Notes under the pieces: generated by a model
Told to the model about the DNA's origin: nothing
The model's database searches: none
The model's input: only the letters and a program-made list of their open reading frames with translations
Part shown: positions 7,756-39,122 of the stretch, piece by piece
Layout of the letters: each line of letters begins with the position of its first letter
How positions within the stretch are numbered: the stretch's first letter is position 1
Origin: Thauera sp. 28
GTDB taxonomy: Bacteria > Pseudomonadota > Gammaproteobacteria > Burkholderiales > Rhodocyclaceae
Assembly (NCBI RefSeq): GCF_000310145.2
Contig: NZ_AMXA01000013.1
Location: forward strand, 1 to 64,000
DNA: 64,000 bases
Reading direction: 5' to 3'
Translations under genes and position numbers: made by a program

Positions 7756-9615
7756 TTACCGACTTGCCAGGTAACCCCGCCAGCCACCGAAGTGGCTGAT
7801 CTCGGTCGCACCGGCGATGCCTGAGGGCTCGCAGATGAAGCCGATCTCCCAGCGGCCGTCCGCCAGTTCGACCTTGCCGAGCCCGAGCGGGCTCGGGATG
7901 CCGGCCAGGAAGCTGCCGAACTCGGCAGCGGGCAGTTCCCACACCTCCACCTCAATGGCGCACCCGTCTTCGGCCACCCTGACCATCCCCGGGCGCAGCG
8001 GTGGGCCGCCGGCCAGCGCGTAGAGCCGGTAGTGCGGACTGCTGACAGTGCGTTCGAGCAGTCGCGCACCGCGTGTGGTGAGCTGGTGGTTCAGCGGCAG
8101 GCCTTGCAGGTGGGCGCCGCACACGACGATGGCGAGCCGGTCGTGCTGGGCGCGGCCGACGGGGCGGGGGGTGTCGAGCGCGTGCCCCCCGGTGAGCGGC
8201 AGCTCGGCCTGGACGCGCTGGAAAGCGTCGGCGAGCGAGAGCAGGTATTGGTCGGTGAAGGCGCGGCCGAACAGGGTAACGCCCCAGGGCAGCGCGTTCT
8301 TCATTACTGCGCTGGGCACGGCCACGGCCGCGTAGTCGAGCAGGTTCATGAAGTTCGTGTAATGGCCGAGGTCGCTGTTGCGCAGCACCGGTTCGGCTGC
8401 GAGCTCGGCCAGTGTCACCGGGCGACCGATGGTGGGTGTGAGCACGCAGTCGAGCTCGGCGAGCAGTGCGTCACAGCGTGCCTTGTAGGCCTGCAGACGG
8501 TACTGGGCCTCGAAGGTCTGGACTGCGGTCGCGCCTGGTGCCTTGGCGAGCACAGCCCGGATCACCGGTAGCACGGCGTCCGGCGTGCGCTCCATGAGCG
8601 GGCCGACCACACTGTAGCGCTCGGCCACCCAGGGGCCCTCGTAGAGCAGGCGGGCAGCCTCGAGGAAGGGCGTGAAGTCGATCTCCACGGCCTCGCCGCC
8701 GATTGCGCGCAGCCGCTCGATGGCGCTGGCGAACAGCGCCGGCCCCTCCGTGCAGCCGAAGAACTCGAGGTCCGCGGGGCGCGGCACGCCGAAGCGGAAG
8801 GGCAGCGGCGTGCCGAAGGCGGCGGCGTGGTTCCAGGACGGGTTGTGGCGGCTGTAGGGGTCGAGCGCATCAAGGCCAGCGCACAGACCCAGCAGGCGGG
8901 ACGCCTCGCTGGCGGTGGCGGTGAAGAAGGTGACGCAGTCCAGTGTGCGGCAGGCCGGCACGACGCCGGCGGTCGACAGCAGGCCGCGCGAGGGCTTGGT
9001 GCCGACCAGGTTGTTGAACGCGGCCGGCACCCGGCCGGAGCCCGCGGTGTCGGTGCCGAGCGCAAAACTCGCGACGCCAAGGGCAACGGCCAGCGCCGAA
9101 CCGGCACTCGAGCCACCCGCGGGGTAGTCGGGCAGCACCGCATTGCGGCAGGCACCATAGGGTGAGCGGGTGCCGTTGAGCCCGGTGGCGAACTGGTCAA
9201 GGTTGGCCTTGCCGATGGGGATGGCGCCGAGCGCGACGAGGCGCTCGACCACGGTCGCCGAGCGTGCCGGCGTGTAGGCGAACGCCGGGCAGGCTGCCGT
9301 GGTCGGGATGCCGGCAAGGTCGATGTTGTCCTTGATGGCGAAGGGGATGCCGAACAGGGGCAAGTCGGCTGGCGACTGATGCTCGAGCGCGGCGAGGTAG
9401 GGCTCGAGTTCGGCTTCGTCGAGCACGTGGATGAACAGCCGGTACTCCGCGTTGAGCGCGAGCGCGCGGGTGCGCAGCGCGCCGATCAGGCCGCGCGGCT
9501 CGATGCGGCCGTCGCGATAGGCGGCAAGCAGGGCGTCGAGACGCAGGTCGAAGGGGTGGCTGAGGGAATGGCCGAAGGGATCGCCGAGGGCTTGGTCGAA
9601 CTGCGGGGTGTTCAT
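7756..9615 (-). CDS. atzF: Allophanate hydrolase AtzF
   Basis: A 619-residue amidase-signature enzyme that hydrolyses allophanate to two ammonia and two CO2, the last step of guanidine or urea breakdown by the carboxylase route. The Ser-cisSer-Lys triad is recognisable: Lys95 in FAIKDNID, Ser169 in GGSSAGS, and nucleophile Ser193 in DTAGSGR. A C-terminal domain of about 130 residues (from about 480) matches the extra domain of AtzF, which is reported to act after the amidase. The ATG at 9615 overlaps the carboxylase stop as ATGA, so the genes are coupled. Upstream in-frame codons exist but fall inside the carboxylase gene. It is the last gene of the leftward guanidine operon. Confidence 0.95.
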   Translation of the reverse strand: MNTPQFDQALGDPFGHSLSHPFDLRLDALLAAYRDGRIEPRGLIGALRTRALALNAEYRLFIHVLDEAELEPYLAALEHQSPADLPLFGIPFAIKDNIDLAGIPTTAACPAFAYTPARSATVVERLVALGAIPIGKANLDQFATGLNGTRSPYGACRNAVLPDYPAGGSSAGSALAVALGVASFALGTDTAGSGRVPAAFNNLVGTKPSRGLLSTAGVVPACRTLDCVTFFTATASEASRLLGLCAGLDALDPYSRHNPSWNHAAAFGTPLPFRFGVPRPADLEFFGCTEGPALFASAIERLRAIGGEAVEIDFTPFLEAARLLYEGPWVAERYSVVGPLMERTPDAVLPVIRAVLAKAPGATAVQTFEAQYRLQAYKARCDALLAELDCVLTPTIGRPVTLAELAAEPVLRNSDLGHYTNFMNLLDYAAVAVPSAVMKNALPWGVTLFGRAFTDQYLLSLADAFQRVQAELPLTGGHALDTPRPVGRAQHDRLAIVVCGAHLQGLPLNHQLTTRGARLLERTVSSPHYRLYALAGGPPLRPGMVRVAEDGCAIEVEVWELPAAEFGSFLAGIPSPLGLGKVELADGRWEIGFICEPSGIAGATEISHFGGWRGYLASR

Positions 9616-12600
9616 GCTTCCTCCAGGATCAGGACGCGTTGGCCGGCGCGTACCGGCGAGCCGGGCTGCACACGGACCTCTTTGACGATGCCGTCGCGTG
9701 GCGCGGTGAGGGGGATCTCCATCTTCATCGACTCGAGCACGACCAGCGTGTCGCCTGCGCTGACGCGCTGGCCGGCCTCTACCCGGACCTGCCACAGGTT
9801 GCCGGCGATGTGGCTCTCGATACCGTGCTCGCCGTGGCCGAGTGCCGCATCCTCGCCCAGGTCGGGGGCGACGTCCTCAGCCTCGAAATGGGCCTGGCCG
9901 CTGGCGATCCAGCGTTCGCGCTCGGCGTCGAAGGCGGCGCGCTGCTGGGCGCGGAAGGCGGCGATGCCGTCGGCTTCGCGGGCGAGGAAGGCCTGGTAGT
10001 CGGAAAGGCGCAGCGTGCTCGGCTCGATCTCGATCGTGTGGCGGCCGAGCGGGAAGTCGTGGCGGATGCGCAGCAACGCCTCGGCCGACACCGGGTGGAA
10101 GCGGATCTGGTCGAAGAAGCGCAGCAGCCAGGGCTTGCCGTCGAAGGCCGCCACCTGGCGGTAGCGGTTCCACATCTGCAGCGTGCGGCCGACGAACTGA
10201 TAGCCGCCCGGCCCTTCCATGCCGTAGATGCATAGATAGGCGCCACCGATGCCGACCGAGTTCTCGGCGGTCCAGGTGCGCGCCGGGTTGTACTTGGTGG
10301 TGACCAGGCGGTGACGCGGGTCGAGCGGCGTGGCCACCGGCGCACCCAGGTAAACGTCGCCCAGGCCCATCACCAGATAGCTCGCCTCGAACACCGCGCG
10401 CTGCACTGCGTCGAGATCGGGCAGGTCGTTGATGCGGCGGATGAACTCGAGGTTGCTCGGGCACCAGGGGGCGTCCTTGCGCACCGTGGTCATGTATTTC
10501 TCGATCGCCAGGCGGCAGGCGGGGTCATCCCAGGACAGCGGCAGATGCACGATGCGCGAGGGCACTTCCAGATCGTCCTGGGCGCAAACGCCCGCCCAGA
10601 GTGCTGCGATGCGTTCGAGCAGTTCGGCCAGCGGCAGGGTCTCCGGCCGGTAGTGCAGTTGCAGTGAGCGGATGCCGGGGGTGAGATCGACCAGGCCGTC
10701 CAGCCCAAGGGCCTCGATCGCCTGCATCAGCGCGTGGGCGCGGAAGCGCAGCACGAGGTCGAGTTCGGCCGGGCCGATCTCCAGCAGCAGGTGGGTGTCG
10801 CCGGAAAGGCGCGCCACCAGCCGGGTGTCGGCTTCGCCGAGTTCGAGCACGATGGGCGAAGCGGGCGTGATGGGCGCGCTATATGCCGGGTAGGGCTGGG
10901 CGAGGGTGTGCGCCTCGGCCTGCCGGGCACCCGCGAGCTCACGAGCAGTAGCGAGTGCCACCGGCACGAAGCGCAGCTTGTCGCCGGCCTTCAGCTGGCC
11001 GAGCTGCCACAGGTCGGCCTCGATCACCGTCACCGGGCAGACGAAGCCGCCCAGGCTGGGGCCGTCGGGGCCGAGGATGACCGGCATGTCGCCGGTGAAG
11101 TCCACCGCGCCGACCGCGTAGGGGTTGTCGTGGATGTTGGACGGGTGCAGCCCGGCCTCGCCGCCGCTGTCGCGTGCCCATTCCGGCTTGGGGCCGATCA
11201 GGCGCACGCCGGTGCGGCTGGAGTTGAAATGCACCTCCCAGTCGGTGGCGAAGAAGCGCTCGATGTAGGCTGGGCTGAAGTACTCGGGCGCGCCGTGCGG
11301 ACCGTAGATCACGCGTAGCTCGCGTATGGCCGGCAGGGCCGGGGTCAGCGTGGCGGGCAGGCTGCTGCCGGCGGCGGACTCGCTCAGCGGGAGCAGGTGC
11401 AGTACGTCGCCGCCGCGCAGCGCGCGGCCGCCATGGCCGCCGAACTGGCCGAGGGTGAAGGTGCTTTGGCTACCCAGGTAAGCCGGCACGTCGAGGCTAC
11501 CGCGCACGCACAGGTAGCTGCGGGTGCCGCTGCCGGCGATGGTGCCGAAGACCAGGCGGCTGCCGGCCGGAATGAAGATGGCCGTGTTCATCGGTTGCGG
11601 CTGGTCATCGAGGGCGAGCGGAATGTCCGCGCCGGTGACTGCCACCACGGCATCGCAGTTGAAGCGCAGCACCGGCCCACTCATGGTGATTTCGAGCGCA
11701 GCGGCGCCTTCCGGATTGCCAAGCAGGCGGTTACCCAGGCGCAGGGCGCGGTCGTCCATCGGACCGGAGGGAGGCACTCCCACGGCCCAGTAGCCCAGCC
11801 GCCCCGGCCAGTCCTGTACCGTGGTCTGGGTGCCGGCAGTGATGAACTCGATGCTGTGGCTGCGGTAGCGCAGGCCCTCCAGGCACCGCGTCCACGGCTG
11901 GCCGCTGGCAAAAGGCGCATCGGCGAGGATCTGGCGCAGGTAGTCGCGGTTTGTCTCGACACCATACAGGCGGCTGGAGGCGAGTGCCTCGTCCAGGCCA
12001 GCGATGGCCGCCTTGCGGTCGTCGGCGTGGGTGATCAGCTTGGCGATCATGGGATCGAAGTACGGCGGGATCTCGCAGCCGGCCTCCACCCAGGTGTCGA
12101 TGCGCAGCGCCTGGCCGTCGGCGGGCGGAAAGGCCACCGCCGTCAGCAGGCCGGGGCAGGGCTGAAAGTCGCGGCCCGGGTCTTCGGCGTACAGTCGCGC
12201 CTGGATGGCGTGGCCGCGCGGCCGCAGGCCGGCCGCAAGCTCGGCCAGCGGCGGCAGTTCGCCGGCGGCGAGTTGCACCATCCACGCCACCAGGTCCACA
12301 CCCCAGACTTGCTCGGTGACGCCATGTTCCACCTGCAGGCGGGTGTTCACCTCGAGGAAGTAGAAGGCGCCGGCCGCGCTGTCGTACACGAATTCCACCG
12401 TGCCGGCTGAGCGATAGTTCACCGCGCGTGCCAGTCGCACCGCGGCTTCGCACAGCGCCTCGGCCGTGCCTGCAGGCAGGTTCGGCGCCGGTGTTTCTTC
12501 CAGCACCTTCTGGTTGCGGCGTTGCACCGAGCAGTCGCGAACGCCGAGCGCGATCACTTCGCCAGCGCCGTCGCCGAACACCTGCACTTCCAGGTGGCGG

Positions 12601-13214
12601 GCGCGTTCGATGTATTTCTCGATGAAAACCCCGGCGTCGGAGAAGTTGTTCTCGCCCAGGCGGCGCACCGCGTCGAACTGCTGCGCGAGCTCAGCGGCGT
12701 CCCAGCACACGCGCATGCCGATGCCACCGCCGCCCGCGGTGCTCTTGAGCATGACCGGGTAGCCGACGGTGGCGGCGGCGGCGAGGGCCTCGTCCACCGA
12801 GGCGAGCAGACCGGTGCCTTCGAGCATGGGCACGCCATGGGTCTTGGCCAGCGCGCGTGCGGTGTGCTTGAGGCCGAACACCCGCAGTTGTTCGGGGGTG
12901 GGGCCGATGAAGGCGATGCCGGCAGCCTCGCAGCGTTCGGCGAAGGCGGCGTTCTCTGACAGAAAGCCGTAGCCGGGGTGGATGGCGCCGACGCCGCGCT
13001 CAAGGGCGATGGCGAGGAGCTTGTCCACCGCAAGATAGGTCTGCGCCGCCGCGCCTTCACCCAGGCTGTGGGCCTCGTCGGCTTCGATCAGATGGCGGCT
13101 GGCGGCGTCGGCTTCGGAATACACCGCCACCCCGGTCGTGCCCAGGGCCTTGAGGGTGCGCAGGATGCGGCAGGCAATCGCGCCGCGGTTGGCGATCAGG
13201 ACTTTGTCGAACAT
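9612..13214 (-). CDS. Guanidine/urea-type biotin-dependent carboxylase
   Basis: A 1200-residue multidomain carboxylase. Residues 1-450 are a biotin carboxylase (FDKVLIANRGAIACRI start, ATP-grasp region with KSTAGGGGIGMR). About 470-1000 carry the KipI/KipA-like carboxyltransferase domains. The C-terminus is a biotin carrier domain with Lys1164 in ESMKMEI. Annotation pipelines would call it urea carboxylase. The guanidine-I riboswitch and the two UAAP genes in the same operon argue that its physiological substrate is guanidine, which it would carboxylate to carboxyguanidine. The ATG at 13214 gives the family's N-terminus. Allophanate hydrolase is a separate downstream gene here, not fused as in fungal urea amidolyase. 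Confidence 0.9.
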   Translation of the reverse strand: MFDKVLIANRGAIACRILRTLKALGTTGVAVYSEADAASRHLIEADEAHSLGEGAAAQTYLAVDKLLAIALERGVGAIHPGYGFLSENAAFAERCEAAGIAFIGPTPEQLRVFGLKHTARALAKTHGVPMLEGTGLLASVDEALAAAATVGYPVMLKSTAGGGGIGMRVCWDAAELAQQFDAVRRLGENNFSDAGVFIEKYIERARHLEVQVFGDGAGEVIALGVRDCSVQRRNQKVLEETPAPNLPAGTAEALCEAAVRLARAVNYRSAGTVEFVYDSAAGAFYFLEVNTRLQVEHGVTEQVWGVDLVAWMVQLAAGELPPLAELAAGLRPRGHAIQARLYAEDPGRDFQPCPGLLTAVAFPPADGQALRIDTWVEAGCEIPPYFDPMIAKLITHADDRKAAIAGLDEALASSRLYGVETNRDYLRQILADAPFASGQPWTRCLEGLRYRSHSIEFITAGTQTTVQDWPGRLGYWAVGVPPSGPMDDRALRLGNRLLGNPEGAAALEITMSGPVLRFNCDAVVAVTGADIPLALDDQPQPMNTAIFIPAGSRLVFGTIAGSGTRSYLCVRGSLDVPAYLGSQSTFTLGQFGGHGGRALRGGDVLHLLPLSESAAGSSLPATLTPALPAIRELRVIYGPHGAPEYFSPAYIERFFATDWEVHFNSSRTGVRLIGPKPEWARDSGGEAGLHPSNIHDNPYAVGAVDFTGDMPVILGPDGPSLGGFVCPVTVIEADLWQLGQLKAGDKLRFVPVALATARELAGARQAEAHTLAQPYPAYSAPITPASPIVLELGEADTRLVARLSGDTHLLLEIGPAELDLVLRFRAHALMQAIEALGLDGLVDLTPGIRSLQLHYRPETLPLAELLERIAALWAGVCAQDDLEVPSRIVHLPLSWDDPACRLAIEKYMTTVRKDAPWCPSNLEFIRRINDLPDLDAVQRAVFEASYLVMGLGDVYLGAPVATPLDPRHRLVTTKYNPARTWTAENSVGIGGAYLCIYGMEGPGGYQFVGRTLQMWNRYRQVAAFDGKPWLLRFFDQIRFHPVSAEALLRIRHDFPLGRHTIEIEPSTLRLSDYQAFLAREADGIAAFRAQQRAAFDAERERWIASGQAHFEAEDVAPDLGEDAALGHGEHGIESHIAGNLWQVRVEAGQRVSAGDTLVVLESMKMEIPLTAPRDGIVKEVRVQPGSPVRAGQRVLILEEA

Positions 13215-13268
13215 GGTTTCACCCGATGGAGTCGAGCTGCGGCGGGTCGTCCCGCCCGGATCGGTGCC

Positions 13269-13286
13269 GCGGGGGTCGTCCCCCGT
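13269..13286. other. Hairpin between UAAP2 and carboxylase genes
   Basis: CGGGGG-TCGT-CCCCCG forms a compact hairpin in the 95-bp gap inside the guanidine operon. It may stabilise or process the mRNA. There is no T tract, so it is not an obvious terminator. Confidence 0.3.
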
Positions 13287-13309: not shown

Positions 13310-13960
13310 TCAGCGCGCGGCGGCGTCCCAGATCAGGACTTCGGCCGGGGTGGGGTTGTAGCCGTTGCACGGGTTGTTCAACTGCGGACAGTTGGAAATC
13401 AGCACGATCACGTCCATCTCGGCGCGCAGTTCCACATACTTGCCGGCGGCGGAGATGCCGTCTTCGAAGCTCAGCCCGCCTTCCGGCGTGACCGGCACGT
13501 TCATGAAGAAGTTGATGTTGGCACCGATGTCGCCCTTGTCCAGACGGCCGTCATGCAGGCAACCGCACAGGAAGTTGTCGCGGCAGGCGTGCATGTGCAG
13601 CTTGTCGAGCGCGTAGCGCACGGTGTTGCTCTCCTGCGCGCAGGCGCCACCCAGGGTGTCGTGGCGACCGCAGGTGTCGGCGACGATGGTCAGCAGCGGC
13701 TTGCCCAGGTTGGAGTACAGCACCGTGCCGGTACTCAGGTAGATGCTGGCCTGGCGGCGCAGGGTGCGCTGGGGGTCGTAGCGCTCGCGCGGGTTGGCCG
13801 CGCTGTAGAACAGGGTGTCGACGGCCTGGTTGCCCTCCAGGTCGAGTAGGCGGATGGTCTGGCCGGCCTTGACTTCGCCGACCCAGGGCTCGCCGGCGGG
13901 GATCAGGTGACGGGCGACGGCGGTTTCAGGAGTGAGTGCGCTGGCGGTGAGTGTGCTCAT
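13310..13960 (-). CDS. Carboxyguanidine deiminase-type subunit (UAAP2 family)
   Basis: A 216-residue protein of the urea carboxylase-associated protein 2 (DUF1989) family. It shares the [11 protein letters not shown] and conserved Cys/His segments ([27 protein letters not shown]) with its partner gene just upstream. Published work on this family describes the two proteins as subunits of carboxyguanidine deiminase (CgdA/CgdB), which converts the product of guanidine carboxylase to allophanate. I do not assign which subunit is A or B. The start at 13960 leaves 11 bases to the end of the UAAP1 gene. The longer open frame extending upstream merely runs over UAAP1. Confidence 0.88.
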
Positions 13961-13971
13961 GGTGGCGGCCC

Positions 13972-14715
13972 TCACAGGTAGAGGTTTTCGGTGTTGATGA
14001 AGCCGCGCACGTTCTCCGGGCGCGAGGTCCGGCAGTGCTCGGCAATGGCCGGGTCGGCCTGCATCCAGCTCAGGCGTACCGGCCTGGGCGCGTAGTCCGG
14101 CGATGGATCCATCGGATGCTGCAGGGCGGTCATCACCACCAGCGTGTCCATCGGCGCGTACAGCTCGATATGGTCGCCGGGCTTGCTGTTGCCGGGCACG
14201 AAGTGCATGCCGCCCGCCGCATCCACGCTGACGCGGGAGAACAGGTTCAGCACCATCAGCAAGTCCTCCAGCCCCATCCCCCATTTGCCCAGCTCCACCA
14301 GCAGGTTGTCGGTGCCGTTGCGGTGGCAGGCGTTGCGCAGCGTCTGGTAGGGGCCATCGCCGTACTTCGCGCGCACTTCGTCGGCATTGAGCACGCCGCC
14401 CAGGCTGTCGCTCCAGCCCGTGGTGTCGGCGGTGATGGCCGCCAGCACGCGGCCCATGTCCGAGTACAGGCAATGGCCGCGGGTGAGTTTGGCGGTGTGC
14501 TGGCACTTGAGCGAGTCGGGCAGGTTCAGGCGTTCGGTTTTCTCGAAAGCGTTGAACAGCAGCATGCTGACGTTGGCGCCGCCCTCGATATCGGTGAGGC
14601 GCAGCAGCCGGCCGCGGCGCAGGATGAAGGAGCGGTGGCCGCCACCGGGCAGGACTTCCTCGTGCAGCGCGGGGTAGGGCAGCGGGCTGGCGTGGGGCGT
14701 GAGCGTGTTGGTCAT
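13972..14715 (-). CDS. Carboxyguanidine deiminase-type subunit (UAAP1 family)
   Basis: A 247-residue protein of the urea carboxylase-associated protein 1 (DUF1989) family, related to the next gene. Matching segments are [42 protein letters not shown] and [19 protein letters not shown]. It presumably pairs with UAAP2 to form the deiminase that releases ammonia from carboxyguanidine. It follows the transporter ATPase gene after 10 bases, tying uptake to catabolism in one transcript. Confidence 0.88.
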
Positions 14716-14725
14716 GGGGAACTCG

Positions 14726-15514
14726 TCATGCGGTCTTGAGCGCGCCGGTCACATGGGCGGGCAGCGCGGCGACGGCCTCGCGGGTGGCGCGGCGGTCGAG
14801 GTTGAGGGGGAGGTCGTAGGTGATGCGGGCGCCGTAGGCGCCGGGTGCCTGCGGGTCGTTGCGCACCTTGTCGAACACCAGCAGGCGGGTGCCGAGGGTG
14901 AAGCCCTCGGACAGGTCATGAGTGACCATCAGCACGGTGAGCCCCGTCTCCTGCCAGAGCTCGAGCAGCAGCGCGTGCATGTCCTTGCGGATGCCGGGGT
15001 CGAGCGCCCCGAAGGGCTCGTCCAGCAGCAGCATGCGCGGCTTCATGATCAGCGCCTGGGCAATCGCCAGGCGCTGCTGCATGCCGCCGGACAGCTGGCT
15101 GGGGTACTTGTCGAGCGCGTGGTCGAGGCCGACGCGGCGCAGCAGCTGCGCGGCCTGCGTGCGCGCCTCGGCCTTGGCGCGGCCGAACAGGCGACCAAGC
15201 AAGGGGGCGCGCGGCAACTCCAGCCCGAGGGCGACGTTGTCGAGCACGCTCAGGTGCGGCAGGACCGAGTAGCGCTGGAAGACGATGCCGCGGCTGGGGT
15301 CGGGTTCGGCCACCAGGGGCTTGTCGTCGAGCAGGATCTGGCCCCTGTGCGGGCGCTCCTGGCCGAGCAGCATGCGCAGGAAGGTGGACTTGCCGCAGCC
15401 GGAGGCACCGACCAGGGCGCAGAACTCGCCCTGGTCGATGTCCAGGCGCAGATTTTCGAGCACCGTCTGGTCGCCATACTGCTGCCAGACATTGCGGACC
15501 TGGATGAAGCTCAT
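14726..15514 (-). CDS. ABC transporter ATP-binding protein, guanidine operon
   Basis: A 262-residue ATPase of the nitrate/sulfonate/taurine (NitT/TauT) type. Walker A is GASGCGKST, the signature is LSGGMQQRLAIAQAL, and Walker B is RMLLLDEPFGALD. It energises import of the substrate recognised by the binding protein three genes upstream, inferred to be guanidine or a related nitrogen compound. Its ATG overlaps the permease stop as ATGA. The C-terminal 30 residues (after the H-loop region VTHDLSEG) are longer than in minimal NitT ATPases but typical of the urea carboxylase-linked set. Confidence 0.9.
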   Translation of the reverse strand: MSFIQVRNVWQQYGDQTVLENLRLDIDQGEFCALVGASGCGKSTFLRMLLGQERPHRGQILLDDKPLVAEPDPSRGIVFQRYSVLPHLSVLDNVALGLELPRAPLLGRLFGRAKAEARTQAAQLLRRVGLDHALDKYPSQLSGGMQQRLAIAQALIMKPRMLLLDEPFGALDPGIRKDMHALLLELWQETGLTVLMVTHDLSEGFTLGTRLLVFDKVRNDPQAPGAYGARITYDLPLNLDRRATREAVAALPAHVTGALKTA

Positions 15515-16326
15515 GCTCGACCTCCTTCGTACCAGGGGAAGGCGGCACGGGTCAGACGCTTCAGGCCGAGATCCATCAGCCAGGCGAGCAGCGTGATCCA
15601 TGCCACGTAGGGCAGGATCACGTCCATGGCCAGGTAGCGGCGGACGAGGAAGATGCGGTAGCCGAGGCCGTCGGTGGAGGCGATCGCCTCGGCGGCGATC
15701 AGGAACAGCCATGCAGAACCGAGCGCCAGCTGCAGCGCGATCAGCAGGCGCGGCAGCAATTGCGGTAGCACCACGCGCAGGATCAGCGTCCAGGTGTTGG
15801 CGCCCAGGGTCTGGGCCTTGATCAGCAGCTCGGCGGGGATCTCTCGCGCACGCTGTTCGAGGTCGCGGGCGATCACCGGGGTGATGCCGAGCACGATCAG
15901 CATTACCTTGGATAGCTCGTCCAGGCCGAACACGATGAACAGCACCGGCAGGATGGCCAGCGGTGGAATCATGGACACCACGGTGAGCAGCGGCGACAGC
16001 GCGGCGCCGAACAGCGGTAGGCTGCCGGCGAGGATGCCCAGGCTGAGGCCGAGTGCAGCAGCAATGGCCAGCCCCATGGCGAGCCGCTTCAGGCTCGCGG
16101 CCGTGTCGTCCCACAGCAGGTAGCGGCCGCTGCGCGGATCCTCCTTGAAGGCCATGCGCTCGACAGCGTCGGCCATCTGCACCACGCTGGGCAGCAGCTT
16201 GTCCTGCGGGTTCTCGGCCAGGCGTGCGGCCGAGCCGGCGAGGTAGGCGACCAGCAGCAGGGCGAAGGGCAGCATCGCCAGGCTGATCCGCCAGCTGGGG
16301 CCGGGTTTTCGGTTGATCAGGCGCAT
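15511..16326 (-). CDS. ABC transporter permease, guanidine operon
   Basis: A 271-residue inner-membrane permease with about six hydrophobic segments, the first at residues 15-35. The cytoplasmic coupling loop is recognisable around AQTLGANTWTLILRVVLPQLLP (the EAA loop of NitT/TauT permeases). The ATG at 16326 was chosen because GGAG lies 7 bases upstream and it gives the family's N-terminus; the longer frame adds a Pro/Arg-rich stretch. Its stop overlaps the ATPase start. It forms the channel for the uptake system of this operon. Confidence 0.9.
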   Translation of the reverse strand: MRLINRKPGPSWRISLAMLPFALLLVAYLAGSAARLAENPQDKLLPSVVQMADAVERMAFKEDPRSGRYLLWDDTAASLKRLAMGLAIAAALGLSLGILAGSLPLFGAALSPLLTVVSMIPPLAILPVLFIVFGLDELSKVMLIVLGITPVIARDLEQRAREIPAELLIKAQTLGANTWTLILRVVLPQLLPRLLIALQLALGSAWLFLIAAEAIASTDGLGYRIFLVRRYLAMDVILPYVAWITLLAWLMDLGLKRLTRAAFPWYEGGRA

Positions 16327-16423: not shown

Positions 16424-17500
16424 TTAGTCGAGCTTGCCGTCGGCGGCCATCCGCATGTAGGTCGGGTCGAAGCGCAGCTTCACGTTGGCGGCGTTGCCGG
16501 TGGTGCCGCCAGGGAAGCTCATGCCCACTGCGTCGGCGCTGCGCGCGCCCTCGCCGAGCAGGCCGTGTTTGAAGCTGAACTCGGCGACCTTGGTCATGGT
16601 TGCCGGCAGCGCCGCGCTTTCGGTGAAGGCCAACGCCTCGGCGGCGGAGTAGAACATGCGGGTGGCGGCGAGTTGGGCTTCATAGCCGGCGAGGTCGGTG
16701 CCCGCCGCTGCGGCCATATGGGTGCGCGCCGCCTCCCCGGCGGGGGTGTCGGCACTCATGACCGACATGACCTCGTACCAGGCGCCGGCCAACGCCTTGC
16801 CAAGAGCCGGGTTGTCGCCCAGGGTGCGGGTATTGACCACCATCAGGTCGATGATCTCGCCGGGGATCTGGCTGGAGTCGAACACCTTGCTGACCTTGGG
16901 CATGGCGGTGACCTCGGCGAGCAACGGGTTCCAGGTCGCCACCGCCTGTACCCCCGAGGTGGCGAAGGCGGCTACCAGGTCGGCATCGGAGGTGTTGACC
17001 ACCTTGATGTCGCGCTCGCTCAGCCCGACGGACTCGAGCCCGCGGGCGAGCAGGTAGTGAGAGACCGAGAGCTCGACCAGGTTGACCGGCAGGCCCTTCA
17101 GATCGGCCAGTGTCTTGCCCTCGCCCTTGAGCACGATGCCATCGTTGCCGTTGGAGAAGTCGCCGACGATCAGCGCGGTGGAGTCGACGCCGCCTGCGGC
17201 CGGGATCGTCAGTGCATCCATGTTGGTCATGGCGCAAGCGTCGAAGCCGCCCGCGGTGTACTGGTTGATCGACTCGATGTAGTCGTTGACCTGAACGACG
17301 TCGACCTTGATGCCGTATTTGTCCGCCCACTTGGCCATGATGCCGCTCGAGGCCGCGTATTCCCAGGGCATCCAGCCAGCGTAGATCGTCCAGCACACCT
17401 TGAAGCTGGATTTGGGCGCGGCCTGGGCGGGCGTTGCCACGGCGAGGGACAGCGTAAGCGCAGCCGCTGCGGCTGCTGCAAGGGTGCGGAACTGGGTCAT
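16424..17500 (-). CDS. ABC transporter periplasmic substrate-binding protein, guanidine operon
   Basis: A 358-residue secreted binding protein with a clear signal peptide (hydrophobic run to about 22, cleavage after TPAQA). The mature part has the NitT/TauT binding-protein fold, with CWTIYAGWMPWEYA and GGFDACAMTNMDAL near the ligand pocket. It is the first gene of the operon and has a GGAGG ribosome site 6-10 bases before the ATG. The guanidine-I riboswitch occupies its leader. The ligand is inferred from operon content (guanidine or a close relative) and could instead be a guanidine-yielding compound. Confidence 0.9.
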   Translation of the reverse strand: MTQFRTLAAAAAAALTLSLAVATPAQAAPKSSFKVCWTIYAGWMPWEYAASSGIMAKWADKYGIKVDVVQVNDYIESINQYTAGGFDACAMTNMDALTIPAAGGVDSTALIVGDFSNGNDGIVLKGEGKTLADLKGLPVNLVELSVSHYLLARGLESVGLSERDIKVVNTSDADLVAAFATSGVQAVATWNPLLAEVTAMPKVSKVFDSSQIPGEIIDLMVVNTRTLGDNPALGKALAGAWYEVMSVMSADTPAGEAARTHMAAAAGTDLAGYEAQLAATRMFYSAAEALAFTESAALPATMTKVAEFSFKHGLLGEGARSADAVGMSFPGGTTGNAANVKLRFDPTYMRMAADGKLD

Positions 17501-17549
17501 GAGAACCTCCGTGCGGTTATCGGGTCGGGCGGGAGCGGCACATCACCGG

Positions 17550-17670
17550 TGACGGTGCGTTCTCCCGGGCTTTTATCCCGCCGTGTAACCTCGCCAGAGG
17601 TCGATGACTCTCGGACCAGCCACCCGCTCGCGCGGGCCGGAACCCTAGTCATCCATTCCAGATTGTGCTG
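17550..17670 (-). promoter_or_regulatory. Guanidine-I (ykkC) riboswitch
   Basis: On the minus strand the leader carries the hallmark sequences in the right order: CTAGGGTTCCG (17648-17638), GGTCCGAGAG (17617-17608), ACACGG, then GGGATAAAAGCCCGGGAGA (17579-17561). These are the conserved joining regions of the ykkC aptamer, which binds guanidinium. It is followed by a TCACCGGTGA palindrome and then the ribosome site of the transporter gene, so control could act by an alternative structure before the start codon. The motif match is strong. The exact expression platform is not resolved by eye. Confidence 0.93.
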
Positions 17671-17714
17671 TGCGACGTCCGTGCTTAGGCGCCGCTCCTG
17701 CATGGTCAACGTAA

Positions 17715-17730
17715 AGCGAGGATCGTGCCA
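17715..17730 (-). promoter_or_regulatory. Sigma-54 promoter of the guanidine operon
   Basis: Minus-strand TGGCAC-GATCC-TCGCT matches the -24/-12 consensus (TGGCAC-N5-TTGCW) with GG and GC exactly 12 bp apart. The predicted start is near 17704, about 35 nt before the riboswitch. NtrC-like sites lie 65-115 bp farther upstream. Confidence 0.75.
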
Positions 17731-17793
17731 GCTCCCAAGTCCCTGTGTTTGCTGGGCGTTTCGTGCCTAACATCGGTCAAGATCAATACTGGC

Positions 17794-17830
17794 TGCACTG
17801 ATTTGGTGCATCGTGCTCGAGCATGGTGCC
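17794..17830. promoter_or_regulatory. Two NtrC-like enhancer sites
   Basis: Site 1 (17794-17810) is TGCACT-N5-GGTGCA, matching the NtrC consensus TGCACY-N5-GGTGCA at all specified positions. Site 2 (17814-17830) is TGCTCG-N5-GGTGCC, a weaker match on the same axis with its centre 20 bp away. Their position upstream of the sigma-54 promoter is right for an enhancer activating the guanidine operon under nitrogen limitation. Confidence 0.75.
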
Positions 17831-17925
17831 GGCTGGTGTTTGCACCACGCCGGGATCTGCCCGCATCGAGGTGTACCTTGCGCATGCCGGGTGTCGCAGC
17901 CGGCAGCTCGGCGAGTGCAGGGGGA

Positions 17926-17957
17926 GGAAAAAAAACGGCGCCCCGCAGGGCGCCGCT
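17926..17957 (-). terminator. Rho-independent terminator of the amt/glnK operon
   Basis: On the minus strand a GC-rich stem (CGGCGCCC/GGGCGCCG around a short loop) is followed by eight T. It lies 55 bp past the end of the last ammonium transporter gene and separates that operon from the guanidine operon. The 18011-17501 gap also holds the enhancer, promoter and riboswitch listed separately. Confidence 0.9.
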
Positions 17958-18011
17958 CGAAACAGGACCGGAGGAGAGCGGTCCCGCAGGTGAAGTGCTT
18001 GGCCTTGCGGC

Positions 18012-19340
18012 TCAACTGCGATAAGCGGACTCCCCGTGCGCCGTGATGTCCAGGCCCTCGCGCTCCTCTTCTTCGGGCACGCGCAGGCCGACCAGGATGT
18101 CCGCGATCTTGTAGGCGATGAAGGCGACCACTGCCGACCACACGATGGTGACGATCACGCTCCAGGTCTGGATCCAAACCTGGGCGCCCATGGCGAAGTC
18201 CTCGCCGCCGGTGCCGCCCAGGGCGGGCGCAGCGAACACGCCGGTGAGAATCGCGCCGACGATGCCGCCCACGCCATGCACGCCAAACACGTCGAGGGCG
18301 TCATCGGCGCCCAGCATGTGCTTGAGGCCATTGACGCCCCACAGGCAGATGAAGCCGGACAGCGTGCCGATCACGATCGCGCCCATCGGGCCCACCGAGC
18401 CGCAGGCAGGGGTGATGGCGACCAGGCCGGCGACCGCGCCCGAGGCCGCGCCCAGCATCGAGGGCTTGCCCTTGAGCAGGGCCTCGGCCAGCGACCAGGC
18501 CAGCACCGCGGCGGCGGTGGCGAACAAGGTGTTGATGAAGGCGAGCGCCGCGCCCGAGGTGGCCTCGAGGTTGGAGCCGGCATTGAAGCCGAACCAGCCC
18601 ACCCACAGCAGCGAAGCGCCGACCATCGTCAGCGTCAGGCTGTGCGGTGCCATCGATTCGCGACCGAAGCCGATGCGCTTGCCGACCATGTAGGCGCCCA
18701 CCAGGCCAGCGATACCGGCGTTGATGTGCACCACCGTGCCGCCGGCAAAGTCGAGCGCACCGTCCTCCAGGAGGTAGCCGCCCGGACCCCACACCATGTG
18801 GCAGATCGGCAGGTAGCAGAAGGTGAACCAGATCACCGAGAAGATCAGCACCGCCGAGAACTTCATGCGCTCGGCGAAGGCGCCGACGACGAGTGCGCCG
18901 GTGATGCCGGCAAAGGTGGCCTGGAAGGCGATGAAGGCGAATTCGGGCAGCTTCACGTTGTCGGTGAAGGTGTCGGCGAGCGAGTCGATGGTGACGCCGG
19001 ACAGGAAGACCTTGTCGAGCGAGCCGATGAAGGGGGTGCCCTCGGTGAAGGCCAGGCTGTAGCCATAGACGGCGAACAGCAGTGCGTTGAGCGAGAACAC
19101 GGTCATCACCTGCATCAGCACCGACAGCATGTTCTTGGCGCGCACCAGGCCGCCATAGAACAGCGCCAGGCCGGGCAGGGCCATCATCAGCACGAGAAGC
19201 GTCGCGGTCATGATCCAGGCGACATCGCCCTTGTGCACCTCGACGGCGGCTTCGGCCGCCTCCTGGGCGAGGGCGCCGCCGGAGACGGCGGGCAGGCCGA
19301 CAAGAAGGCTTGCAGACAGCAGCGTATGGATTGTTTTCAT
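18012..19340 (-). CDS. amtB: Ammonium transporter (second amt copy of the block)
   Basis: A 442-residue Amt/MEP/Rh channel with a signal-peptide-like start (residues 1-25), an extra alanine-rich stretch and eleven membrane helices. The pore twin histidines are recognisable in VVHINAGIAGLVGAY and GVHGVGGIVGAI. The conserved FNAGSNLEATSGAAL segment follows. It lies 15 bases after a glnK gene. GlnK is known to plug AmtB when ammonium is plentiful, so the pair is a regulatory unit. It is the last gene before the terminator at 17926-17957. It is clearly diverged from the other amt at 19793-21142, not a recent duplicate. Confidence 0.95.
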   Translation of the reverse strand: MKTIHTLLSASLLVGLPAVSGGALAQEAAEAAVEVHKGDVAWIMTATLLVLMMALPGLALFYGGLVRAKNMLSVLMQVMTVFSLNALLFAVYGYSLAFTEGTPFIGSLDKVFLSGVTIDSLADTFTDNVKLPEFAFIAFQATFAGITGALVVGAFAERMKFSAVLIFSVIWFTFCYLPICHMVWGPGGYLLEDGALDFAGGTVVHINAGIAGLVGAYMVGKRIGFGRESMAPHSLTLTMVGASLLWVGWFGFNAGSNLEATSGAALAFINTLFATAAAVLAWSLAEALLKGKPSMLGAASGAVAGLVAITPACGSVGPMGAIVIGTLSGFICLWGVNGLKHMLGADDALDVFGVHGVGGIVGAILTGVFAAPALGGTGGEDFAMGAQVWIQTWSVIVTIVWSAVVAFIAYKIADILVGLRVPEEEEREGLDITAHGESAYRS

Positions 19341-22362: not shown

Positions 22363-22378
22363 AGCACGGCGTGTGCCA
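22363..22378 (-). promoter_or_regulatory. Sigma-54 promoter of the porin-glnK-amtB block
   Basis: Minus-strand TGGCAC-ACGCC-GTGCT has a perfect -24 element and a -12 element retaining the essential GC, 12 bp from GG. The start is predicted near 22352, giving a leader of about 33 nt. Confidence 0.75.
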
Positions 22379-22485
22379 GCAAACTGAAGTGATTGTTAAA
22401 TATGAAGTTATCAGGATGATTGGGGGGGCGCAGCCGTTGTTTTGCTGCGCTGCCGCACGGATTCATGCACGAGAATGGCTCGGTA

Positions 22486-22536
22486 TGCACCGACTTGGTG
22501 CATCGAGCCGGGCCGTGACTGCCAGCTTCTGGTGCA
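22486..22536. promoter_or_regulatory. Two NtrC sites upstream of the porin-glnK-amtB block
   Basis: Site 1 (22486-22502) is TGCACC-N5-GGTGCA, a perfect NtrC palindrome. Site 2 (22520-22536) is TGCCAG-N5-GGTGCA with one good half. Their centres are 34 bp apart, about three helical turns, and they lie 110-160 bp upstream of the sigma-54 promoter, the usual enhancer arrangement. The rest of the 22320-22590 gap shows nothing else clear. Confidence 0.8.
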
Positions 22537-38914: not shown

Positions 38915-39020
38915 GGTGAGCACCCCGCCGCTTTCGCGCCAGCATGTCGGCAGCGGCGACCACCCGGTCGCGCTTGCCTCCTTGGCAGTGCCGCGGCACT
39001 GCGGCTAGAATCGCAGCCTT

Positions 39021-39122
39021 GCCGAGGAGCGCTGCGACCCACCGAACCTGTGCGGGCCAGGCTCGGCAACCGATCAACGGCGCTCACAAACCTTCAGCCG
39101 GTTTGTGGCGCCGTTCGCTTTT
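39021..39122 (+). promoter_or_regulatory. S-adenosylhomocysteine (SAH) riboswitch
   Basis: The aptamer core is unmistakable: CCGAGGAGCGCTGC (39022-39035), GCCAGGCTCGG (39056-39066) and CGGCGCTC (39078-39085), the conserved elements of the SAH class found before metH and ahcY in betaproteobacteria. Directly after it a long hairpin (39076-39083 with 39108-39115, continued by CACAAACC/GGTTTGTG at 39085-39107) uses the same GGCGC strand, then TTTT. Aptamer and hairpin exclude each other, so SAH binding should turn metH on. Confidence 0.92.

Follow-up and report, generated by a model that had tools for sequence, protein, structure and literature searches.

Thauera sp. 28 carries a putative guanidine-assimilation operon in which an NtrC/sigma-54 promoter and guanidine riboswitches very probably form an AND gate with two inputs in series. 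The operon lies on the minus strand of the window, that is, the whole stretch of 64,000 nucleotides analyzed here (contig NZ_AMXA01000013.1, positions 1 to 64,000). An earlier note on this DNA had placed NtrC-like sites, a sigma-54 promoter and a ykkC aptamer in this order on that strand and had read them as an AND gate; we confirmed the order from 17830 to 17560, and the gate reading appears well supported by the comparative evidence. Judging from sequence comparison, promoter plus aptamer would be the rule in our Pseudomonadota sample and not peculiar to Thauera sp. 28, and the arrangement is apparently a widespread and undescribed combination of two control layers, each of which is already known.

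When nitrogen is limiting, sigma-54 RNA polymerase at 17730-17715 would be activated by phosphorylated NtrC from a site about 80 bases upstream. The transcript, starting near 17704, would bear the guanidine-I aptamer, which by the function reported for its class would permit expression of the importer genes when guanidine is bound, and the guanidine-II riboswitch just 5' of the carboxylase start codon, an arrangement published in other bacteria, would gate the catabolic enzymes. In such a gate, the ATP-dependent use of guanidine would be paid for only when nitrogen shortage coincides with available guanidine.

Organization of the guanidine operon

Seven genes form one apparent operon, encoding a three-component importer, UAAP1, UAAP2, carboxylase and allophanate hydrolase (Table 1), and the locus is predicted to combine guanidine transport with carboxylation. 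The substrate-binding protein, annotated as "putative urea", is a probable guanidine importer component, and UAAP1/CgdA would, by the published pathway, be a carboxyguanidine deiminase subunit. The carboxylase, a member of a family of urea/guanidine type, is provisionally assigned to guanidine by the context of two guanidine riboswitches.

Table 1. Features of the guanidine operon and its leader in the window
Feature	Position	Strand	Remarks
Second NtrC-like site, weak, GGCACCATGCTCGAGCA	17814..17830	-	9/12 positions
NtrC-like enhancer site TGCACCAAATCAGTGCA	17794..17810	-	11/12 half-site positions; 80 bases 5' of -24 element, start to start
Sigma-54 promoter element (-24/-12) TGGCACGATCCTCGCT	17715..17730	-	16.1 of 19.6 bits; top score in window
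Transcription start, predicted	17704	-	rule of thumb, from -12 position
Guanidine-I riboswitch aptamer (RF00442)	17560..17659	-	93.8 bits, E 1e-15
P2 hairpin GACCTCTGGCGAGGTT of aptamer	17587..17602	-	5' strand able to pair with Shine-Dalgarno sequence of first gene
Shine-Dalgarno GGAGG of first gene	17506..17510	-	
ABC transporter substrate-binding protein ("putative urea")	16424..17500	-	TIGR03427, 562.7 bits, cut-off 333.9
ABC permease	15511..16326	-	PF00528
ABC ATPase	14726..15514	-	PF00005
UAAP1/CgdA, DUF1989	13972..14715	-	TIGR03425, 321 bits
UAAP2/CgdB, DUF1989	13310..13960	-	TIGR03424, 329 bits
Guanidine-II riboswitch, two ACGA-loop hairpins	13242..13285	-	36.9 bits; carboxylase start 28 bases on
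Urea/guanidine carboxylase	9612..13214	-	TIGR02712, 1847 bits
Allophanate hydrolase	7756..9615	-	TIGR02713, 796 bits
Terminator-like site 3' of upstream amtB	17933..17958	-	11-pair stem and T run

An Rfam search of the minus strand recovered the ykkC (guanidine-I) aptamer with a score of 93.8 bits (gathering threshold 63), over the full model (positions 1-107 of 107) and as the sole RF00442 match in the genome. According to the literature on this class, the aptamer would bind guanidine and raise expression; expression only with guanidine present, as the earlier note had it, would likewise follow from the riboswitch class. Two further RNA features of the window are an SAH riboswitch (39018-39092, plus strand, 62.3 bits) and a Betaproteobacteria toxic small RNA (RF02278; 53004-53069, plus strand, 68.3 bits).

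The guanidine-II riboswitch, absent from the earlier note, matches RF01068 above the gathering score of 32 bits, and its two ACGA loops agree with the ACGR loops of the class. A guanidine-II match was found in 23 of 40 genomes with guanidine-I, and in 19 genomes, by the coordinates read, it lies on the same strand, 3.4-5.3 kb 3' of guanidine-I when measured between starts. At 20 of 29 loci, the window included, guanidine-II is flanked by UAAP2 on the 5' side (at 4-278 bases, once 735) and by the carboxylase on the 3' side (at 14-39 bases in 18 of the 20). Of the 19 genomes with this downstream guanidine-II, one, G388 (L187), has it in front of a gene for a desaturase-like membrane protein some 325 aa long; desaturase-like genes behind guanidine-II might act on guanidino compounds. 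The presence of both riboswitch classes within one operon was considered as a novelty and dropped as already in print: the accessible texts describe operons of Raoultella, Klebsiella and Erwinia that begin with guanidine-I and have guanidine-II in front of the carboxylase (PMC12186494) and the dual arrangement in the guanidine carboxylase operon of Vreelandella boliviensis (PMC12508155), and these operons, as described there, share the gene functions of the present one as well as both riboswitches.

The aptamer and importer gene occur together in only 1 of 29 genus genomes, so a genus-level footprint is impossible, and the aptamer is found in 12 of 249 family genomes. Given this rarity in both genus and family, the operon was likely gained horizontally together with its promoter. 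An operon of the same type, annotated as urea genes, is carried by a 672-kb plasmid of Caballeronia sp. NK8 (L224), with the aptamer core and, beside other neighbor genes, a sigma-54 site of 16.1 bits. A search at E 1e-5 found relatives of the binding protein in 358 plasmid records.

Conservation of the sigma-54 promoter

The element TGGCACGATCCTCGCT has GG at -24, GC at -12 and the fixed spacing of sigma-54 promoters. The sigma-54 promoter claimed in the earlier note stood, with the highest of four matches of at least 12.5 bits on both strands of the window, scored with matrix values that we take to describe such elements. The usual start rule puts +1 twelve bases beyond the C of -12 and gives 17704, the very position predicted before. 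The genome encodes RpoN (470.5 bits, cut-off 277; one match over the cut-off).

For the survey, a site was counted if it scored at least 13.5 bits no more than 200 bases 5' of the aptamer core, a cut-off chosen after inspection of the first match lists. A family/class sample comprised 42 guanidine-I loci from whole genomes belonging to the family or the class of the window, which was included (of 38 class matches, eight second copies without a locus were left out of the sample). A contig sample, which is no census, comprised at least 120 stretches with 124 aptamers retrieved by a pattern that required the exact aptamer core; three leaders with too short an upstream sequence (L103, L114 and L152) were dropped, leaving 121, and L039, whose core an earlier expression had missed, was counted. 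Phyla of contig leaders were assigned from record titles.

Among the matches listed, a sigma-54 site precedes 97 of the 122 Pseudomonadota guanidine-I leaders: 16/23 in Alpha-, 14/19 in Beta- and 30/38 in Gammaproteobacteria, and 37/42 in the family/class sample (60/80 for the named Pseudomonadota contigs only). None of the 41 listed leaders from other phyla has one (Bacillota 0/27, Cyanobacteria 0/6, Actinomycetota 0/7, Campylobacterota 0/1). The opposite strand of the same listed Pseudomonadota leaders gave 1/122, and Markov-shuffled versions of the 200-nt leaders, 50 of each, were positive in 33/4000 cases for the named Pseudomonadota and in 17/2100 for the class sample. Among the leaders listed, 101/122 were positive at 11.5 bits and 70/122 at 15 bits, with 0/41 in the other phyla at either cut-off; after removal of near-identical leaders, 91/115 were positive, and 39 of 51 named groups had at least one positive leader. 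The matrix-free pattern TGGCA-N(k)-[TC]GC[AT] occurs at k=7 in 90 of the 122 listed Pseudomonadota leaders, in six or fewer at each of the remaining k values between 2 and 13, and in 0/41 listed leaders of other phyla at any of these spacings. This test is independent both of the matrix values and of the post hoc cut-off; the invariance of GG and GC inside the 97 sites is partly built in, as these were selected by matrix. The flanks of the 97 sites carry a mean of 0.11 bit.

Within the window's family, the -24/-12 element is found at all 13 guanidine-I loci, the window included. Lack of conservation in relatives had been set beforehand as the outcome that would refute the combination; conservation was found instead, with NtrC sites enriched upstream as well. 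When the window is aligned with eight close orthologues, the NtrC halves, the -24/-12 element, the aptamer and the Shine-Dalgarno (SD) sequence appear as conserved islands between diverged flanks. From the 3' end of the element to the CTAGGG core of the aptamer there are 44-84 bases in Beta- and 27-129 in Gammaproteobacteria; in Alphaproteobacteria the distance is 19-24 bases, and hence the predicted start lies nearly at the first aptamer helix.

Controls and exceptions

TPP riboswitch leaders of the same class have no sigma-54 site in 28 of 28 cases. Guanidine-II leaders (one locus, L184, was left out as too short) have a site in 2 of 28, both in genome G396, where L181 and L194 score 17.1 and 16.1 bits; one of the G396 guanidine-II leaders stands before a gene for a desaturase-like membrane protein weakly resembling an arginine hydroxylase family, the other before a carboxylase. 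Among sugE-type guanidine-II leaders, none of the five with sufficient upstream sequence has a site (the sixth is too short); two of these five genes score above NCBI's SugE cut-off and three just under it. Conversely, a homologue of importer, UAAP or carboxylase (E <= 1e-12) is present in 94 of the 97 sigma-54-positive guanidine-I stretches among the matches listed, a count that includes broad families such as ABC ATPases. Together with the TPP and sugE-type controls, this indicates that the promoter goes with assimilation operons.

The remaining 25 of the 122 listed Pseudomonadota leaders fall under the 13.5-bit cut-off, some of them with a degenerate element; no recognizable sigma-54 element was seen in the Nitrosomonas, Nitrosospira, three Rhodobacterales and Gluconobacter leaders. 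The gene scanned in Nitrosomonas (one) and in Gluconobacter encodes an APC-type permease (best match TIGR03428, below its cut-off) in place of an ABC importer. Missing rpoN as the explanation of the exceptions was rejected: only 3 of 16 exception genomes are without an rpoN match over the cut-off. As most exception genomes keep rpoN, other controls exist. The three Rhodobacterales leaders without a site are L075, L084 and L122; in two of their three genomes an rpoN match over the cut-off is absent.

Mode of action of the guanidine-I riboswitch

In beta- and gammaproteobacteria, guanidine-I might be a translational switch under NtrC/sigma-54, a reading to which we give close to an even chance: without guanidine, the P2 5' strand and loop would pair with the SD sequence of the first gene, and guanidine would let P2 fold and release that sequence. 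The alternative, possible and on balance doubtful, is that guanidine-I acts here through transcription termination, the mode presumed in the literature, so that the whole gate is transcriptional. In the accessible text of a review, guanidine-I usually acts on transcription (PMC12186494), and that of the V. boliviensis paper presumes a guanidine-I terminator (PMC12508155). The linker and the 3' part of the aptamer in the window can form a strong hairpin (-29.6 kcal/mol), which would suit termination, and Rho-dependent termination may be a further route. Terminator-like elements between aptamer and gene, however, were found in 4 of 92 sigma-54-positive leaders versus 20 of 27 in Bacillota among the matches listed, and a simple consensus scan of window positions 17400-18100 found no such site 3' of the promoter or the aptamer. 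This absence is not peculiar to sigma-54 leaders, as the listed Cyanobacteria and Actinomycetota have none either (0/6 each).

A further argument against termination comes from the matching of P2 with the SD sequence in 80 distinct leaders, out of the 97, that have an assignable P2 and an SD placed by rule. P2 scored 5.82 against its own SD region and 4.95 against those of other leaders (z 7.7, reached in 0/300 swaps), and there were 19 P2-SD helices of length 7 or more versus 5.0 by swaps (highest swap 10). The P1 and coding-start controls were flat in this own-versus-swapped pairing; P3 was weak both against the SD (z 2.1, 3/300 swaps) and, as a strand, against the linker (z 1.7, 17/300). 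No significant P2-SD excess was found in Bacillota (n=23), despite 3 long helices versus 0.7 expected, in Cyanobacteria plus Actinomycetota (n=7) or in Alphaproteobacteria (n=8). In two Pseudomonas leaders (L078 and L109) the P2-SD helix reaches 11 bp, and in other species its loop part and the SD flank change in concert; within the window, GACCTCTG stands opposite CGGAGGTT.

Folding predictions lean toward the termination reading insofar as they gave no general effect of the aptamer on the SD: across 78 leaders the predicted mean unpaired probability of the SD was 0.221 for entire leaders, 0.233 without the aptamer and 0.294 after shuffling of the aptamer. Real leaders lay below shuffled ones in 51 of the 78, with a gain above 0.3 in 5 and a loss in 6. 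A thermodynamic proof of SD hiding from fold energies was dropped for this reason. In the window, the mean unpaired probability of the SD is 0.00 in the free fold and 0.19 with the aptamer enforced. On the leader sequences, we suggest translational control in beta- and gammaproteobacteria as a supported hypothesis, not as a result.

NtrC sites and the source of transcription

The NtrC consensus is TGCACC-N5-GGTGCA. The earlier note had named two NtrC-like sites; the one at 17810-17794 (11/12) is good, the second among eight sites of at least 10/12 in the window, and the other, at 17830-17814, proved weak (9/12). It overlaps an equally weak site at 17823-17807 (minus strand, 9/12), and a right half-site, TGGTGCA, lies at 17847-17841. 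At the alignment place of the weak site 17814-17830, a GCACCA half is present in 5 of 9 aligned leaders, the window included. The window's top NtrC site (22486-22502, minus strand, 12/12) starts 124 bases 5' of another sigma-54 element, 22378-22363. That element (minus strand) precedes a gene for a TorF-type porin and then two successive glnK-amtB pairs. The two top sigma-54 elements of the window (17730 and 22378) also have its two highest-scoring NtrC sites (11/12 and 12/12, respectively), and the putative porin/glnK/amtB promoter region, 22363-22502, is an internal positive control for the site search.

The activator analysis covered 92 leaders, from the matches listed, with a promoter and enough upstream sequence. 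An unbiased count of hexamers 20-200 bases upstream put GCACCA/TGGTGC first (56 leaders versus 12.6 expected), followed by GGTGCA/TGCACC (36 versus 10.9). The inverted TGCACC/GGTGCA pair at 10/12 or better peaks at a gap of 5, in 32 of the 92 listed leaders versus 1.5 expected; at other gaps from 1 to 12 it occurs in seven or fewer, with smaller excesses at gaps of 7 (7 versus 1.3) and 10 (6 versus 0.9). Sites of at least 9/12 are present in 67 of the 92 listed leaders, a raw count; they lie mostly 80-129 bases 5' of -24, with pair spacings of about 21 or 31 bases. Judged against the consensus, the half-sites, gap and spacing are those of the NtrC pattern.

That the promoter is real but served by an activator other than NtrC, in which case the first input would not be nitrogen status, is unlikely. 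The NtrC model has about a dozen genome matches above 270 bits, of which one, ntrC itself, passes the cut-off (701 bits, cut-off 558.6), and the palindrome at 10/12 or better is missing from 60 of the 92 listed leaders; yet NtrC half-sites emerged first from the unbiased hexamers, the gap at which the palindrome is most frequent is that of NtrC, the site before the operon is similar to the one preceding the porin/glnK/amtB genes, and a like-named cluster in Burkholderia cenocepacia is ntrC-dependent according to the accessible text of PMC5491218.

We consider it very unlikely that the operon is mainly read through from glnK/amtB, with only a minor part for the local promoter. The gene amtB does lie 511 bases away on the same strand, and the upstream genes are themselves provided with a sigma-54 element and a 12/12 NtrC site that could drive them. 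A terminator-like site (17958-17933) stands between amtB and the operon, however; no glnK/amtB homologue was found upstream of any of the 70 listed named Pseudomonadota leaders with 1-3 kb of sequence, yet most of the listed Pseudomonadota leaders have the promoter, and the plasmid copy L224 keeps its site beside other genes. Matches like the -24/-12 element exist elsewhere (the four in 64 kb mentioned above), but the single spacing in 90 of 122 listed leaders, the unconserved flanks and the absence from both the 41 listed leaders outside Pseudomonadota and the 28 TPP leaders make a chance match or a functionless inherited relic next to negligible.

Relation to published systems

The NtrC/sigma-54 regulon serves alternative nitrogen sources, with glnK-amtB, urtA and nitrate genes among its targets. 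The guanidine operon shares its -24/-12 plus TGCACC-N5-GGTGCA architecture and its logic, and differs in that the transcript additionally opens with an aptamer sensing the specific nitrogen source. Bacillota guanidine-I (ykkC) leaders with SMR-size genes have the same aptamer as the window and, unlike it, no sigma-54 site (0/27) and frequent terminators (20/27) among the leaders listed; the first two chosen reading frames have 95-160 aa in 21 of 28 listed Bacillota cases, SMR-size by length only. UAAP/carboxylase homologues, on the other hand, are present at L119, L150 and L152.

UAAP1 and UAAP2 contain DUF1989, which we take to be COG3665. In the accessible text of a sigma-54 matrix survey, 102 COG3665 genes are reported, 59% of them labeled "urea carboxylase" (PMC12316311), so the same promoter class is seen there before UAAP/CgdA-type genes; that text files COG3665 as poorly characterized, with no occurrence of guanidine and riboswitch in one reference title only. 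In an ntrC mutant of B. cenocepacia H111, a "urea carboxylase" cluster (I35_7283-7286) is lower or undetected, with log2 -6.0 for the carboxylase, and most NtrC targets are common to sigma-54, according to the accessible text of PMC5491218. The cluster is likened to the window operon by gene and product names only and is interpreted in that text, where neither guanidine nor riboswitch occurs, as serving urea use. Should the aptamer be present in the leader of the cluster, mRNA made without added guanidine would agree with the translational switch. The combination described here also suggests that genes labeled "urea carboxylase" within NtrC and sigma-54 regulons often serve guanidine use.

For V. 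boliviensis, the accessible text of PMC12508155 compares protein levels on guanidine (or methylguanidine) with those on ammonium, each as sole nitrogen source; this design shifts both inputs together and therefore leaves riboswitch and nitrogen effects unseparated. A word search of the main texts of PMC12186494 and PMC12508155, as accessible, gave no occurrence of NtrC, RpoN or sigma factor. The earlier note's impression that the combination has been little emphasized agrees with the open-literature matches listed, among which no paper joins a guanidine riboswitch to sigma-54/NtrC. Zero matches in the open literature were returned for "guanidine riboswitch" with NtrC, ykkC with "sigma 54" and "guanidine carboxylase" with NtrC, and further guanidine or NtrC papers, word-searched, held nothing on the combination.

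Implications

If the translational reading is true, nitrogen hunger alone would stock untranslated mRNA that guanidine opens at once, and the opening would occur twice per transcript, by guanidine-I at the importer and by guanidine-II at the carboxylase. The very probable AND gate tells when these bacteria would treat guanidine as food: assimilation operons appear tied to nitrogen hunger, and the five sugE-type guanidine-II leaders do not. Promoter and riboswitch would together make a natural two-input gate across alpha-, beta- and gammaproteobacteria.
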